This document shows positions 15,029 through 57,347 of a DNA stretch of 64,000 nucleotides, piece after piece. The stretch lies in the NCBI RefSeq assembly GCF_039962115.1, contig NZ_JAMPKJ010000003.1, forward strand, positions 62,001 to 126,000, written 5' to 3'. Each line of letters starts with the position of its first letter. The stretch's first letter is position 1. Origin of the DNA: Funiculus sociatus GB2-C1. GTDB taxonomy: Bacteria > Cyanobacteriota > Cyanobacteriia > Cyanobacteriales > FACHB-T130. Position numbers and translations under genes: made by a program. A model generated the notes under the pieces. The model saw only the letters and a program-made list of their open reading frames with translations, was not told the origin of the DNA and did no database searches.

Positions 15029-15078
15029 TTTCCAGATAGCGAGTCAATTTCAAGACTAATTGAGTCTTGAATTAATTA

Positions 15079-15119
15079 AAAAACCCCAGCACGCTTTATC
15101 TAAGCTGTGCTGGGGTTTT
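15079..15119 (+). terminator. Rho-independent terminator after the peroxiredoxin gene
   Basis: AAAACCCCAGCAC pairs perfectly with GTGCTGGGGTTTT across a 14-base loop and ends in T residues. Confidence 0.9.
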
Positions 15120-15214
15120 ACTTAATTACTCTAACTGTTGTGACGTTGCTTTCACGATGGCTAGGTGTTGTTGATTGTACGCGATCGCGTCTTGATCTGG
15201 ATTTAGGAGTGCGA

Positions 15215-16921
15215 TCACTTATCCAAATAAGTTGTCTTACGTCCCATCCCACGCGCCTTTTGCCAGAGTAGAGTTGCCAAAATAATGATGATATAGAGCG
15301 GAACACCGAAAACAATTACAAACAAAAATATAGTTATAAAAATGATACAAAGGGCAACACCCAAAATAGTTAATGGTACACCTAAAGGATGTTTAATAAT
15401 TAGTTGCTGATAACACTCAATCGCCTTAGCATAGTCTCCTCTCGAAGCGTTAGCCAATCCCAGACGTACCAGTGCAACTATCTCTAATTCGCGGTTTTGT
15501 ATTTCCCGCACCATTGGCAATATCTGCTGATAGGACTCAATAACTTTGGCATGGTCTTTTAGTTGCGCGTAAGCACTTCCCAGACGTGCCAGTGCAACTA
15601 TCTCCAATTCGCGGTTTCCGATTTCCCGCGCCATTGGCAACATCAGCTGATAGGACTCAATAACTTTGGCATGGTCTTTTTGTATCACGTAGGCAGCTCC
15701 CAATGCAGCCAATGCAGCCGTTTCTCCTTCGCGGGTTTCAATTTGCCGTGCAATGGGCAGAATCCGCTGAAAGGACTCAATCGCTTTGGTATAGTCCTTT
15801 AGTTCCGCGTAAGCCCTACCCAGTCCTACGAATGCGCCCATTTCCCCTTTAAGGTCTTTAATTTGCCGCGCAATTTGAAAACTCTGTTGATGGTACTCAA
15901 CCGCTCTGCCATAGTCTCCTTGGGCATGGTAAACCTTTCCTAAATTTCCTAATGCCTGCCCTTCCCCCAGCCGATCTTGAAGTTCCTGTGCCATAGCTAA
16001 ACGCTGGTGCTGGAACTCAATCGCATTGGCATGATTGCCTAAGCGACGATAAATCATTCCCAAATTTCCTATAGTTTGCTCCTCGCCCAGACGGTACTGG
16101 ATTTCCTGCATGATTTTTAGGGCTTCCTGCTGGTATTCCATCGCCAAGGCATAGTCTCCCAAGCGACGGTAAGCAAGTCCCAAATTTCCTATAGTTGCTC
16201 CCTCTAGGCGATGGTCTTGAAGTTCCCGCGCAATAACCAAACTCTGCTTGTGGTATTCAATTGCCTCGGCACACTTTCCCTGAGCAAGGTAAACACTTCC
16301 TAAATTTCCTAGCGCTGTCCCCTCTAGGCGACAGTCTTGAAGTTCCCGTGCAATGACCAAACTCTGCTGATAGCAGCTCATCGCCTTAGCATACTCGTGC
16401 AGAAACAAGTATGCGTTCCCAAGATTTCCCAAAGCTATTCCCTCTCCTCGGCGTTCTTGGACTTCCTGCCAGATTGCTAAATGCTGCTGATGGTGTTCAA
16501 TCGCTTTATCATACTTTGCCAAAGCATGATATGAATTGCCCAAACTATTCAAAAAAATAGCATTAAATATTGGGCTTAATTTGCCTAAAATTCTGATATA
16601 AAGTTCAATTTGCTGATGATAGTAGCCCCAAGTACCTAGTTGCTCATGTAATCCTTCATTAGTAGGAGTATTCAGTTGAATAAAAATGATTTTACCTGCT
16701 TGTTCCCAAGCTTCGACTTCGCAGAGATGGTGGAAGGCTTCCAGGTAGCCGCGCACTTTCTCTATATTGGTTGTATCTGGCTTGGGTTTGTACTTCGTTA
16801 GCCAGTTAATGACGGCTCTGTAATGGGTGCGCTTCCAATGCGGCTGAATAAACTTAATGGCTACTGAATCGATACCAAGCTCTGCCAAAACCGATTCGCC
16901 AGACGGTAAAATATCACTCAT
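15215..16921 (-). CDS. TPR-repeat protein with C-terminal transmembrane segments
   Basis: A 568-residue protein. After about 100 N-terminal helical residues, roughly ten tetratricopeptide units of 40 residues run from about 110 to 500 (pattern G-NLG-Y...G-Y-AIEY-QQ-L...). The C-terminus has two strongly hydrophobic stretches (about 514-552) followed by a basic tail. It starts four bases after the stop of the NB-ARC gene, so the two are surely co-transcribed, and the pair equals one NLR protein cut in two: switch ATPase, then repeat sensor. The membrane tail is unusual and could act in anchoring or membrane damage; that is inference. Confidence 0.85.
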   Translation of the reverse strand: MSDILPSGESVLAELGIDSVAIKFIQPHWKRTHYRAVINWLTKYKPKPDTTNIEKVRGYLEAFHHLCEVEAWEQAGKIIFIQLNTPTNEGLHEQLGTWGYYHQQIELYIRILGKLSPIFNAIFLNSLGNSYHALAKYDKAIEHHQQHLAIWQEVQERRGEGIALGNLGNAYLFLHEYAKAMSCYQQSLVIARELQDCRLEGTALGNLGSVYLAQGKCAEAIEYHKQSLVIARELQDHRLEGATIGNLGLAYRRLGDYALAMEYQQEALKIMQEIQYRLGEEQTIGNLGMIYRRLGNHANAIEFQHQRLAMAQELQDRLGEGQALGNLGKVYHAQGDYGRAVEYHQQSFQIARQIKDLKGEMGAFVGLGRAYAELKDYTKAIESFQRILPIARQIETREGETAALAALGAAYVIQKDHAKVIESYQLMLPMAREIGNRELEIVALARLGSAYAQLKDHAKVIESYQQILPMVREIQNRELEIVALVRLGLANASRGDYAKAIECYQQLIIKHPLGVPLTILGVALCIIFITIFLFVIVFGVPLYIIIILATLLWQKARGMGRKTTYLDK

Positions 16922-16925
16922 TTTC

Positions 16926-18308
16926 TTAATCGAGTTGTTTTAGGTGTTCAAGAGCGACACTACGGATTAGATTATGCTGTCTTAGCAGGAATTGATCTCT
17001 TTCAACAAGTTCCTCAACTAAATAACGACTTTTTAGCACCTCCAGCGCCGCCTCTTGCTGGTCTTCATCACAATCCCAATCTTCCAAGTGACTCAGCCAA
17101 AACTCTTCCGGTACTGCACAGCGATATACAGAAGCTTCGCAAAGCAATCGATAGGCATTAAGGACATCTCTTTTCAAGCGTCCAAAAGTTTTTTCCAGCC
17201 GAACTCGCACATTTTTTCTCAATTCACAAGTATATCGATCTAGCTGCCACTGGTCATCTGCTGATGCTGTTATTCCTTTCGTTTTTGCTTCCTCAATTGC
17301 CTTCTCGACTTCTTCAATTTCATGCCCATTTCTATTCCAGTAAGCCGCCACATTGCCATAAAAAGGGTGACTGCAAATTTCTCCAGAAATCACACGCAAT
17401 GCCAAGGGATGCCCGTCATAAGCACTACCAATTCTTTGTAAATACGGTGTGTATGGTGAATCTGCGCCAGCCTCTAGCCCAATTTTATCGAACAACTTTA
17501 ACCGCTCTGGTTCTGTAAGTCCACTTAAGACGCTGCAATGCCAAAAGTTTTTGTAACGTGCTGGTATCTGATCTGGCAAATCTTGTGAAGTTAGGATGAT
17601 TCGACTTTGGCAAGATTCGGCTGCTAATAAACTTTCAAAGAACTTTGCCCACTCTTTATCCTTAAAATCATTCCAACCTTCTTCTTCATTCCCTTCCAAA
17701 ATCATTTCTAGCGAATCTATCAGCACCAGATACTGATTCTCTCGCAAGCGTTTAACTAACAAATTCAGCAAGTAATTTGTATCTTGGCGGCCTTCTGGTG
17801 TAATGGTTTCTCCCCAATTTTCCAGCCATCGAGTTGCAACGTTGGCAAATGAAGGTTGCTGCTCGTTTTCAAAGTTTTCTTGATGAAACTTATCCCAGCT
17901 TGGCTGCAACTCCACTACTAATCGTTCAGCCAAAGCTGTTTTACCAATCCCGGTGATGCCAAGAAAGATTAATAAGCGACACGAACCTTGAACTTTTTCT
18001 TTAAGTTCGGTAACTAGCTGCTCTCGACCAACCCAGACATCATCATAAGCAAAAAACTCTGCTCTCGAATTTGTCTTGGTTAGTGGGCTGTTATCAACAA
18101 TCTCTTCCCACTTTTGCCCTACAGCCTCACAAATGTTGATAAATGTATCCCGTTCAATTGCTAGCCTCCGCCAAAACCGCTTCAGAGTTGCTTCTGTAGT
18201 ATTGGCTAATCCCCACCAGGCATCTTCTTTTTTGTTCCATCCTTTTTTCTTTCTAGCTTGATCGACAATTTCTAGCCCCATCTGGGATGCTCTGATAGTA
18301 GCTGCCAT
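16926..18308 (-). CDS. NB-ARC/STAND NTPase
   Basis: A 460-residue signal-transduction ATPase of the plant-R-protein/NLR class. The N-terminal 75 residues form a small helical domain common in cyanobacterial NB-ARC proteins (GLEIVDQARKKKGWNK, then a possible helix-turn-helix ending WEEIVD). The nucleotide-binding core has a P-loop GITGIGKTA (117-125), Walker B LVLIDSLE (194-201), a sensor-like RIILTSQ (235-241) and the GHPLAL motif (298-303). A winged-helix part follows. It has no repeats of its own; those are on the next gene, four bases downstream. Such proteins act in regulation, cell death or phage defence; which one applies here is unknown. Confidence 0.87.
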   Translation of the reverse strand: MAATIRASQMGLEIVDQARKKKGWNKKEDAWWGLANTTEATLKRFWRRLAIERDTFINICEAVGQKWEEIVDNSPLTKTNSRAEFFAYDDVWVGREQLVTELKEKVQGSCRLLIFLGITGIGKTALAERLVVELQPSWDKFHQENFENEQQPSFANVATRWLENWGETITPEGRQDTNYLLNLLVKRLRENQYLVLIDSLEMILEGNEEEGWNDFKDKEWAKFFESLLAAESCQSRIILTSQDLPDQIPARYKNFWHCSVLSGLTEPERLKLFDKIGLEAGADSPYTPYLQRIGSAYDGHPLALRVISGEICSHPFYGNVAAYWNRNGHEIEEVEKAIEEAKTKGITASADDQWQLDRYTCELRKNVRVRLEKTFGRLKRDVLNAYRLLCEASVYRCAVPEEFWLSHLEDWDCDEDQQEAALEVLKSRYLVEELVERDQFLLRQHNLIRSVALEHLKQLD

Positions 18309-18369: not shown

Positions 18370-18408
18370 TTGGCTCAATTTTGGCTCAGTTTTGAAATCT
18401 GAGCCAAA
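18370..18408. promoter_or_regulatory. Putative operator between divergent genes
   Basis: TTGGCTCA occurs twice, 11 bp apart (18370-18377 and 18381-18388). The second copy is the left arm of a perfect 10-bp inverted repeat, TTTGGCTCAG (18380-18389) with CTGAGCCAAA (18399-18408). It lies in the 223-bp spacer between the NB-ARC gene and the small DnaX-like gene. One-turn spacing plus dyad symmetry fits a protein-binding site controlling both genes. Confidence 0.45.
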
Positions 18409-18531
18409 GTTGCTACCAAACCAGAGCCATTAAACTTATGCAGTTCAAGGACTATAGAGGTATCGCCTTCTAAGAAGCAACGATAAGCAATAGCCTCTTG
18501 CCAGTTAAAACAAACGCTCAGGAGTAAGACA

Positions 18532-18849
18532 ATGCAAGCTCAAAATTCCGTACAGATGGAACTGCCATTAAACCTGGAGAAAATCGACCCGCTTAAGCAA
18601 ATGGAAAAAGCAATTCAAGATATGCTAGACCTAATCTGGAAAGGTGTAATTTTGCATATTTCGGTAAGGGCTACGAAAGCGCTGATGAGTCAGCATGGGA
18701 AACTGATTGCTTTCAGTAATGAAGAAGCTTGCGTTAAAGTGCGATCGCTACCTATTTTAAACCTGGCAATACAAAAGTTACCCGATGTAGAAGCAGCTTT
18801 CTTGAAAGCTTTTGGTTACAGCATCAAAGTTAATTTAGTAGTTGGGTAA
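18532..18849 (+). CDS. Small protein resembling the DnaX (tau) C-terminal domain
   Basis: A 105-residue protein. After a 20-residue leader, the segment from about 22 to 105 has the pattern I-x-D-x-L-DLIW...ISVRATKALMSQHGKLIAF, then LPDVEAAFLKAFGYSIKVNL. From memory this resembles the end of cyanobacterial DNA polymerase III gamma/tau (a short alpha/beta domain with a terminal K-V-x-L strand). If so, it is a stand-alone copy without the clamp-loader ATPase. It is divergent from the NB-ARC/TPR pair and shares a palindromic spacer with it. The start fits CAGGAG upstream of ATG. The homology needs a profile search. Confidence 0.65.
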   Translation: MQAQNSVQMELPLNLEKIDPLKQMEKAIQDMLDLIWKGVILHISVRATKALMSQHGKLIAFSNEEACVKVRSLPILNLAIQKLPDVEAAFLKAFGYSIKVNLVVG

Positions 18850-54737: not shown

Positions 54738-57347
54738 ATGCGCCCTAGCTTGGATTGTTGGCAAGGGCGCACGGAGGAAAGGCAGAAAATCCGGGGATGG
54801 ATGGCGGATGGAAATATCCGACTGATTGGCATTACGGGTTTGGGTGGCTTTGGCAAATCTACTCTGGCTGCCAAAATCTACGAAGAAGATAGCGCTGAGT
54901 TTGATAAAAAATTTTGGGCAGATGTCAGTCGCCGCGTGACTTTTACCGAGTTGGCGCGACGAGTTTTGCTGCGATTGGGACTTTCCCCGTCAACTGTGGA
55001 GGCAATTCCAGAATTGTTGCTGGTGGATGCGTTGGTGAACCATCTGCGGGAGGGGCGGCATTTACTTGTCATAGACAACCTTGAAAGTCTGCTGCAACAC
55101 GATGGGCAATGGTTGGATGCTATTTACGAGCAGTTTTTTCACGGTTGGTTGGGATGTGGTGGTAAGAGTGTCATTCTGGTAACGACGCGGGAACGCCCGG
55201 ATTTGCCAGAAATTAAGTTGAAATGGCTTCCTTTGCCGGGATTGTCACCAGCAGAGGGGGCTAATTTGTTGAAGGCTTTGGGGATTCTGGGGACTGACGC
55301 AGAATTGCAAGAGTTTGCGAAAAAGGCAGAGGGGCATCCCTTGCTGCTGACGCTGGTTGCAGGTTTTTTGCGGGCAGAGGAGGAGTCAAATCCGCACATT
55401 AGCCATTTGCAGAGGTATGGTTTGGCTGACGTAGCCCAGCTAGTGACTGACGAGAGGCTCGAAGGGTTGCACCGGGGCAAAACCGATATCTGGATGCGCC
55501 TAGTGTTAGATGCCAGCTTTAACCGCCTCAGTGACAAGTTGCAAAGATTGCTACTAAATTTGAGTGTCTATCGGATTCCTATAAATGCGGCGATGGCAGA
55601 TGCCCAGTTGCCGGGAGAGAATGTATCGGAGCAAGATTTAAGGCAGTTGGCTAGGTATTCTCTGTTGCAAGAGGAAAGGGACAACAACGGAGGGCGATGT
55701 TTTCAGTTTCACCCGTTCATTTTGGCGTATGTCAAGCAAAAGGCAGGCGATCTAACCGAGGCGCACGAAAAAGCAATTGCATATTACAGAGAAAATGCCA
55801 AACCCGAACCCTGGCAGACAATAAGTGATGTAGCAGAATACTTAGAAGTTTTCTATCACTGCTATCAGCTGGGAGAGTATGACGATGCCTTCAACACTAT
55901 TCGCCTGTGTGAAGATTTTCTATCTTTACGAGGTTACAACACTGTCCGAGTTGAACTGTACAGGCAGTTAGTTGAGGCATGGCAGCAAAATAATTCCGAT
56001 AGGTGGAAATTCGTAGATTCTCTCATTAATTTGGGCAATGCTTACTATTCCCTAGGACAATACCAACTAGCAATTGGTTACTATCAGCAGTCCCTGGCAA
56101 CAACACGGAAAATTGGCGAGCGCAAGGGGGAAGCGAATTCTCTCATTGGTTTGGGCAATGCTTACGATTCCCTGGGACAATACCAACTAGCAATTGATTA
56201 CTATCAGCAGTCCCTGGCAATATTCCCGAAGATCGGCGATCGCAATGGGGAAGCGAAATCTCTCGCTAATTTGGGCAATGCTTACGATTCTCTGGGACAA
56301 TACCAACTAGCAATTGGTTACTATCAGCAGTCCCTGGCAATATTCCGGGAGATTGGCCAGAGCAATGGGGAAGCGGCTTGTCTCAATAATTTGGGTCATG
56401 CTTACCGTTCCCTAGGACAATACAAACGAGCAATTAATTACCATCAGCAGTCCCTGGCAATATTCCCGAAGATCGGCGATCGCAATGGGGAAGCGAATTC
56501 TCTCATCGGTTTGGGTCATGCTTACCGTTCCCTAGGACAATACAAACGAGCAATTGATTACCATCAGCAGTCCCTGGCAATAACACGGGAGATCGGCAAT
56601 CGCAATGGGGAAGCGAATTCTCTCATCGGGTTGGGCAATGCTTACCGTTTCCTCCGACAATACAAACGAGCAATTGATTACTATAAGCAGTCCCTGGCAA
56701 TAACACAGGAGATCGGCGATCGCAATGGGGAAGCGGCTTCTCTAAATAACTTGGGCAATGCTTACCGTTCTCTGGGACAATACCCACTCGCCATTGATTA
56801 CCATCAGCAGTCCCTAGCAATATTTCGGGAGATTGGCGATCGTAATGGGGAAGCGAATTCTCTCATAGATTTGGGCAATGCTTACAATTCTCTGGGAAAA
56901 TACTCACTAGCAATTGATTACCATCAGGAGTCTCTGGCAATATTCTCGGAGATTGGCGATCGCAATGGGGAAGCGGCTTGTCTCAATAATTTGGGCAGTT
57001 CTTACGATTCTCTGGGACAATACTCATTAGCAATTGATTACTACCAGCAGTCTCTGGCAATATTCCGGGAGATTGGCGACCGCAATGGGGAAGCGACTTC
57101 TTTATTTAATTTAGGAAATGGCTTGGCAAAGCTAGGTCGAAAATCAGAAGCCATTGCTGCTTACCAAAATGCCCGCGATCTGTATCAAGCAATGGAACTA
57201 GATGCAGATGTCCAAGATGCTGACAATGCTATTCAGCGCCTTTCCAAAAAGACTAACATTTGGATGAGTTTGCCAAAAGCTATAGTCAGCTTTTTATTGC
57301 GATGGGTTAATCGTTTATGGGGCCTGCTACACACCTTCCTCAGGTAG
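54738..57347 (+). CDS. NB-ARC/TPR NLR-like signalling ATPase
   Basis: An 869-residue STAND protein. The nucleotide-binding part has P-loop GLGGFGKST (34-42), Walker B LLVIDNLE (109-116), LVTTRERP (147-154) and GHPL (199-202), followed by a winged-helix part. TPR units run from about residue 430 to 800; nine or so are 40-residue, 120-bp copies nearly identical in DNA. The last 30 residues are a hydrophobic or amphipathic helix. No ribosome-binding site is evident before ATG 54738, and the frame is open back to the TGA at 54672. It may thus be translated after termination of the small upstream gene, or the two may have been one gene. Confidence 0.88.
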   Translation: MRPSLDCWQGRTEERQKIRGWMADGNIRLIGITGLGGFGKSTLAAKIYEEDSAEFDKKFWADVSRRVTFTELARRVLLRLGLSPSTVEAIPELLLVDALVNHLREGRHLLVIDNLESLLQHDGQWLDAIYEQFFHGWLGCGGKSVILVTTRERPDLPEIKLKWLPLPGLSPAEGANLLKALGILGTDAELQEFAKKAEGHPLLLTLVAGFLRAEEESNPHISHLQRYGLADVAQLVTDERLEGLHRGKTDIWMRLVLDASFNRLSDKLQRLLLNLSVYRIPINAAMADAQLPGENVSEQDLRQLARYSLLQEERDNNGGRCFQFHPFILAYVKQKAGDLTEAHEKAIAYYRENAKPEPWQTISDVAEYLEVFYHCYQLGEYDDAFNTIRLCEDFLSLRGYNTVRVELYRQLVEAWQQNNSDRWKFVDSLINLGNAYYSLGQYQLAIGYYQQSLATTRKIGERKGEANSLIGLGNAYDSLGQYQLAIDYYQQSLAIFPKIGDRNGEAKSLANLGNAYDSLGQYQLAIGYYQQSLAIFREIGQSNGEAACLNNLGHAYRSLGQYKRAINYHQQSLAIFPKIGDRNGEANSLIGLGHAYRSLGQYKRAIDYHQQSLAITREIGNRNGEANSLIGLGNAYRFLRQYKRAIDYYKQSLAITQEIGDRNGEAASLNNLGNAYRSLGQYPLAIDYHQQSLAIFREIGDRNGEANSLIDLGNAYNSLGKYSLAIDYHQESLAIFSEIGDRNGEAACLNNLGSSYDSLGQYSLAIDYYQQSLAIFREIGDRNGEATSLFNLGNGLAKLGRKSEAIAAYQNARDLYQAMELDADVQDADNAIQRLSKKTNIWMSLPKAIVSFLLRWVNRLWGLLHTFLR
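56028..57110 (+). repeat. Nine tandem 120-bp repeats encoding TPR units
   Basis: Each unit encodes a version of LGNAYRSLGQYKRAIDYHQQ followed by SLAI-x-R-E-IGDRNGEA-x-S-L. Copies agree at most positions, including silent sites, and most include the HIP1-type string GGCGATCGCAATGG. Units differ mainly at a few helix-surface codons (YSL/KRA/QLA, DYH/GYY, IFR/ITR/IFP). Confidence 0.92.

Follow-up and report, generated by a model that had tools for sequence, protein, structure and literature searches.

The window, a stretch of 64,000 nucleotides from Funiculus sociatus GB2-C1, carries an NB-ARC gene whose stop codon is followed four bases later by the start of a TPR gene. Why should an NLR-like protein be made as two polypeptides, and what does the pair do? 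A preliminary description had reported this gene order together with a hydrophobic two-helix C-terminus on the TPR protein, and the open reading frames, Pfam and hydrophobicity confirm both. The pair is a cyanobacterial relative of the animal and plant immune sensors. We consider it reasonably probable that it is a STAND regulator of the AfsR/MalT kind, split in two and with its sensor held at a membrane, controlling its own operon and a divergent DnaX-domain gene (Table 1).

Table 1. Features of the gene pair and its surroundings in the window
Feature	Position	Strand	Length or residues	Description or basis
Arm-TPR sensor gene	15215..16921	minus	568 aa	Pfam, AlphaFold2
Hydrophobic tail of sensor, predicted hairpin	15254..15403	minus	residues 507-556	hydrophobicity, alignment, AlphaFold2
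Putative arm domain of sensor	16559..16834	minus	residues ~30-121	place in fused homologues
Switch gene	16926..18308	minus	460 aa	Xre-like HTH, NB-ARC, winged helix with QHNLIR
Operator-like repeats	18370..18412	.		direct TTGGCTCAATT/TTGGCTCAGTT 11 bp apart
Inverted repeat	18376-18393 / 18395-18412		18 nt	inside operator-like region
Stand-alone DnaX (gamma/tau) C-terminal domain gene	18532..18849	plus	105 aa	divergent

The first protein, the switch, matches the Pfam NB-ARC model with 26.1 bits over residues 96-316 (cut-off 23.5), and the second, the sensor, matches TPR_12 with an E-value of 1e-62. The Walker A residues G117, G120, G122, K123 and T124 of the switch are intact and invariant in 16 of 16 aligned sequences, as are H445, L447 and R449 in its winged helix, where we read QHNLIR as an MHD-like motif by analogy; the chain ends 11 residues past this motif. 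The switch hence carries both traits of an NB-ARC type STAND NTPase, a Walker A motif and an MHD-like winged helix. The arm and sensor, which usually though not by strict definition lie on the same chain, are absent from it, the sensor being a separate gene. Foldseek searches with the AlphaFold2 model of the sensor (mean pLDDT 83) returned mainly TPR proteins, with 6MFV (PH0952) at rank 44 (E 4.7e-8); against the switch profile 6MFV matches only over positions 107-130 (E 8.9e-4). The model of the NB-ARC protein, built from three sequences with a mean pLDDT of 38, was left unused. Elsewhere in the window, positions 54780-55385 give the genome's best match to PF00931 (NB-ARC), within an 890-aa frame that matches the TPR query too. 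A self-complementary stretch at 15073-15127, between the peroxiredoxin and TPR genes, resembles a terminator common to both, although none was listed by the terminator scan.

The two-gene split is the rule among related loci and not an oddity. We classified 124 NB-ARC loci, all picked for their likeness to the window protein: the window itself, four from its own genome and family (L069-L072), 80 from an order search and 39 from order and class searches. A TPR or arm gene follows the NB-ARC gene within 200 bases in 89 of the 124 and within 1,600 bases in 4, the two are fused in 11, and 4 loci meet a contig edge. No TPR partner was found in the locus DNA examined for the remaining 16, of which 15 have an HTH-type or aligned N-terminus. 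Among the 89 adjacent pairs 44 overlap, 40 are spaced by 0-60 bases and 5 lie further apart. L073-L081, with NB-ARC identities of 26-32%, were left out of the count; two of them are fused to TPRs and the others have no adjacent TPR gene. On a tree of 119 of the 124 rows (L127, L147, L153, L176 and L191 left out) the state changes between fused and split three times. The order of the pair is beyond chance, and the fused homologues that the preliminary description had asked after do exist; its view of the division as exceptional is not borne out. We had also considered a frameshift or pseudogene as the origin of the split, and rejected this in view of how often the split recurs. No description of a split NB-ARC/TPR system was found in the open-access literature searched. 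Those of L265-L278 that have no TPR partner are solo HTH-NB-ARC genes that group in one part of the tree, several of them with phased CCTGAGTT-like repeats.

The cut falls at one particular place. At the start of the sensor stands a conserved domain some 92 residues long, which in 8 of 10 fused homologues starts 3-14 residues past the aligned NB-ARC end (36 and 44 in the other two); L127, the eleventh, has no arm domain. We call the domain a putative arm by its place and size, which are as in the PH0952 arm (residues 394-496 in the available text of PMC6468293), and not by a structural match of the domain alone. Since the cut lies between a complete switch and the putative arm, the second protein would be an arm-sensor subunit. 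The arm is described as the key autoinhibitor in TPR-type STANDs, and MalT and PH0952 share with our pair the order NOD, arm and TPR with an autoinhibiting arm, but on a single chain rather than two (PMC6468293, in the portion accessible). Our analysis suggests that the first polypeptide would hold the DNA-binding HTH and the entire nucleotide switch, and that the second, with arm and TPR sensor, would hold this switch closed in trans.

One switch may also consult more than one sensor. At least two arm-TPR genes are present in the locus DNA examined for 14 of the 93 split loci. When 16 genomes were searched for the arm, 15 of them yielded a total of 39 matches, among them eight on one contig of G151 and five on one of G172 that form clusters behind an NB-ARC gene. 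NB-ARC loci account for 36 of the 39, and the three exceptions are at contig starts with the upstream gene out of view (two on G246:C607, one on G354:C785). How an NLR-like switch could be held in trans and consult several sensors thereby becomes open to test. In G151 (L351, 2319-18361) the arm-TPR cluster is broken by a 1385-aa PNP-TPR-PIN protein of the TPR-GreAB-C-PIN type.

The N-terminal domain of the switch looks like an Xre-type HTH and not a death domain, and the switch is probably DNA-binding, judging from sequence comparison. About residues 1-75 align with Xre-like HTH domains; HTH_3 matches the homologue L188 with an E-value of 7.6e-4, below the Pfam cut-off, and the antitoxin HipB matches positions 12-66 of the switch family profile at E 0.15. 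The domain order given in the preliminary description needs one correction: its "helical N-domain" is, by alignment, an Xre-like HTH. The HTH-type set (86 loci, 69 of them non-redundant) was drawn up by alignment to the window N-terminus, with no HTH model involved, and may therefore include proteins that lack an HTH. In 16 of the 124 loci, sequence strings place a PNP domain at the HTH position, six of these also with SEFIR, and Pfam confirmed the N-terminal PNP in both loci tested (L143 and L156). L201 has a caspase N-domain by Pfam, and by eye only the N-domain of L280 appears TIR-like and those of L279 and L281 trypsin-like. The PNP, SEFIR and caspase domains indicate that the same chassis can drive enzymes instead, and suggest one NLR chassis trading lethal enzymes for a DNA-binding output. 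A gene of 159-201 aa with hydrophobic segments recurs beside NB-ARC at nine PNP-type loci (L143, L148, L157, L158, L164, L170, L173, L200 and L262); in the examples inspected it runs on the opposite strand, and no Pfam family matches the piece tested.

Helically phased repeats precede the HTH-type switch genes. In the window an 11-mer at 18370 recurs at 18381, and the repeat pair TTGGCTCANNNTTGGCTCA has a single mismatch-free site in the 6.47-Mb genome; allowing up to two mismatches raises this to 9 sites, compared with 5 when the pattern is reversed. We searched the 220 bp before the HTH-type NB-ARC genes of the 69 non-redundant loci for recurring 8-mers with at most one mismatch, and compared the counts with 40 shuffles. 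Recurrence at lag 11 was observed in 39 of 69 loci (shuffles mean 4.8, maximum 9), at lag 12 in 21 (mean 4.3, maximum 8) and at lag 23 in 16 (mean 4.7, maximum 11). Both lag 11 controls came out close to chance, with 4 of 24 for NB-ARC genes whose N-domain is of another kind (mean 1.9, maximum 5) and 6 of 73 for the DNA behind TPR genes (mean 5.7). A test that ignores the spacing of the repeats is weak, with 18 of 86 loci positive and the window negative (4 of 30 shuffles as high). The HTH classes differ in their repeat sequence, and the promoter and terminator scans gave nothing above shuffles. DNA on the promoter side correlates with HTH identity (Spearman 0.57) and less with the DnaX domain (0.20) over 66 pairs from 12 loci. 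This counts as weak evidence, because the HTH adjoins the promoter and the same loci enter several pairs. The promoter region appears to travel with the HTH, and adjacency could explain this.

Such repeats at a putative target promoter are a trait of AfsR/MalT-type regulators. SARP sites, for example those of AfsR, consist of direct repeats with a spacing of 11 or 22 bp. AfsR, a STAND activator and large SARP of Streptomyces, has an N-terminal DNA-binding domain, NOD and TPR, an order that our pair would share through its putative HTH, with the NOD and TPR inhibiting its DNA-binding part (PMC10936776, as far as the available sections state). It differs in being one chain with another type of DNA-binding domain, whereas the sensor here is a separate gene, tailed in this lineage. 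We propose that the ATP-bound NB-ARC protein would act at the phased repeats in the shared promoter region and so, in AfsR/MalT fashion, control the divergent DnaX-domain gene as well as its own operon. In MalT, by contrast, the DNA-binding domain is C-terminal.

Alleles of the pair are exchanged at a fixed site within the species. The genome G005 belongs to the same species; identity to it at this site is 97% and 92% in the flanks and 91% in the DnaX domain but only 35-40% in the NB-ARC protein, and the G005 sensor has no tail. G003 has a third allele at this site, and in G004 the pair is absent along with nearly all of the DnaX-domain gene. Between the window and G005 the DnaX domain has a dS of 0.094 and the flanking genes have 0.069 and 0.176, and for NB-ARC the dS has reached saturation. 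In the comparison with G003 the dS of the DnaX domain, 0.50, is lower than in its flanks (1.76 and 1.03), perhaps through a shared transfer or through slower change.

The exchange and the enzymatic N-domains of relatives make a role in phage conflict likely, and the signal sensed at the TPRs would probably be a phage component or the damage it causes. An alternative hypothesis is that the pair is a plain stress or metabolic regulator outside phage conflict. The similarly built AfsR and MalT regulate metabolism (PMC10936776 and PMC6468293, both in part), and PADLOC finds only generic TPR models, C3a156 and a weak Csx1 on the sensor and a weak mads_8 (E 0.0042) on the switch, with no match to a described defence-system model beyond the generic TPR models and mads_8. 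We consider this alternative unlikely, since exchange at a fixed site together with the empty site in G004, and enzymatic N-domains on relatives, fit conflict genes better.

The membrane tail is an addition of some lineages and not a defining feature, a role that we rejected on its presence in 7 of the 93 split loci and its absence from the same-site allele. In the sensor region 507-556 the 19-residue mean hydrophobicity peaks at 3.29, and the AlphaFold2 model places helices at 516-538 and 542-567, with a pLDDT of only 32-63 in the tail blocks. Lys/Arg residues follow the second helix in the window protein and its relatives, and both ends would be cytoplasmic. Tails were observed at the window, L126, L128 (two genes), L135 (second gene), L183, L188 and L198, and those of the window, L126, L183, L188 and L198 align. 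None of the 11 fused chains has one, though the counts are too small to show a link between tail and split. The tail profile matches 8 of 388 genomes, among which the match in G293 (L212) is another protein and that in G374 a fragment of a TPR protein. Tails are scattered on the tree, with 7 changes for 7 rows among split rows, yet are somewhat clustered, with 4 changes against other named groups where shuffles average 6.7 and 1 of 500 is as low.

We suggest that anchoring is the likeliest role of the tail. In this lineage the C-terminal hairpin would tie the sensor to the membrane and so keep the switch inactive or off the DNA until the signal arrives. The lethal pore, which the preliminary description had offered beside anchoring, gains no support. 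It would make the pair a defence NLR that senses phage and oligomerizes so that the hairpins permeabilise the membrane, with the HTH only autoregulating expression. The tail does occupy the position of a C-terminal PNP domain in relatives (L143, L156 and L170 by Pfam; L148 and L158 by likeness), and the allele exchange and the PNP, SEFIR and caspase N-domains of related NB-ARC proteins would suit such a system. But most partners of the same switch have neither a tail nor another recognised C-terminal domain, which would leave most HTH-type pairs without an effector, and we regard a lethal tail as quite unlikely. The earlier idea of the two genes as one unit with a membrane part on the sensor is supported, whereas a tail that is part of the unit as such is not. 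The refuting conditions set in the preliminary description gave a mixed outcome: tail-less TPR homologues are common, but arm matches are confined to NB-ARC loci wherever the upstream gene is in view. The converse, an NB-ARC gene without a TPR partner, is seen.

The divergent gene encodes a stand-alone DnaX C-terminal domain, with matches to NCBIfam gamma/tau (E 5.6e-10, positions 432-515 of 640) and Pfam DnaA_N-like_STI (E 7.4e-12). Among the matches listed for 320 genomes, 14 are stand-alone DnaX-domain genes with E-values of 5.1e-29 or better, and the one after them (E 3.7e-16) lies in a 697-aa frame; the 14 leave out shorter weak frames in G161 (128 aa, E 5.7e-8) and G073 (234 aa, E 1.4e-8). 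In 13 of these 14 the gene diverges from one of HTH-STAND type, the G204 copy being at a contig start. By clustering it is found at 10 of the 93 split loci besides the window, and in most NB-ARC/TPR pairs the tail and the DnaX-domain gene are both absent.

The DnaX-domain gene remains in place as the adjoining NLR genes change, a NACHT protein being among the replacements. It is also constant at a second site (G037, G290, G165 and G218), where the neighbours are of three kinds: an Xre-type NB-ARC pair, a NB-ARC pair of LuxR type, and a NACHT protein of LuxR type. The neighbour in G165 is NACHT with NCH2 and a weak sigma-4-like N-terminus (E 0.0028), and that in G218 is alike. These HTH-NACHT-NCH2 proteins (L358, 4079-6550; L359, 3607-6090) have the HTH and promoter region in common with the LuxR-type NB-ARC pairs, and the promoter regions of G218 (NACHT) and G290 (NB-ARC) are identical in 94 of 94 compared bases. 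No description of a link between DnaX and NLRs was found in the open-access literature searched.

The pair may control or guard this small DnaX copy. As a guard system, the DnaX-domain protein would be a clamp-loader decoy, and the adjoining NLR genes would sense phage proteins attacking it. The constancy of the gene beside differing NLR genes agrees with this, as does the dN/dS of 0.40 for the DnaX domain against 0.063 and 0.069 in the flanks in the G005 comparison, and guarding of a host factor has been proposed for bNACHT25 and DnaJ (PMC12169576, in the part available). The raised dN/dS fits relaxed constraint too, and most NB-ARC/TPR loci have no DnaX-domain gene; we judge a decoy improbable, the least probable of the alternatives to a split regulator. 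A wider proposal, which is possible but doubtful, takes the DnaX domain as a resident mimic of a replication factor, watched by interchangeable DNA-binding STAND guards (HTH-NB-ARC with arm-TPR, or HTH-NACHT), each with its own operator. The split would let the switch consult several sensors, some stationed at the membrane, and the output would be transcriptional control of a replisome brake and not direct killing. With its exchanged neighbours, the lasting DnaX-domain gene offers a natural setting in which to ask if bacteria use NLRs to guard or to brake their replisome.

Several other known systems resemble the split regulator in part. Avs and bNACHT proteins also join a STAND switch to a sensor, and the likeness extends to the enzymatic N-domains of the pair's relatives and to the HTH-NACHT-NCH2 protein that takes its place at the second site; they are one chain with an N-terminal effector (in the consulted portion of PMC12169576), unlike the split pair with its HTH. 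Cyanobacterial sigma factors with NB-ARC or TPR_MalT (PMC11119718, in part) likewise join NB-ARC to a DNA-binding protein of transcription, but have a sigma-factor core and are single chains. In LypABC of Caulobacter, which is CARD-NLR-like, the ATPase has TPR-like repeats and the XRE-family CdxB represses the operon (PMC13236601, available section); there the HTH is on a separate protein and the ATPase and repeats share a chain. The ternary and TRADD-N STAND systems (Kaur et al. 2020, 2021) are modular multi-gene STAND/TPR systems of multicellular bacteria, in some of which an HTH is taken as transcriptional output; their AP-ATPase is fused to the TPRs, unlike in our pair (PMC7159879 and PMC8195603, in the text available). 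Beside the G005 allele (L072, 2796-3496) two additional small open reading frames of 134 and 97 aa are present, perhaps a toxin-antitoxin pair.
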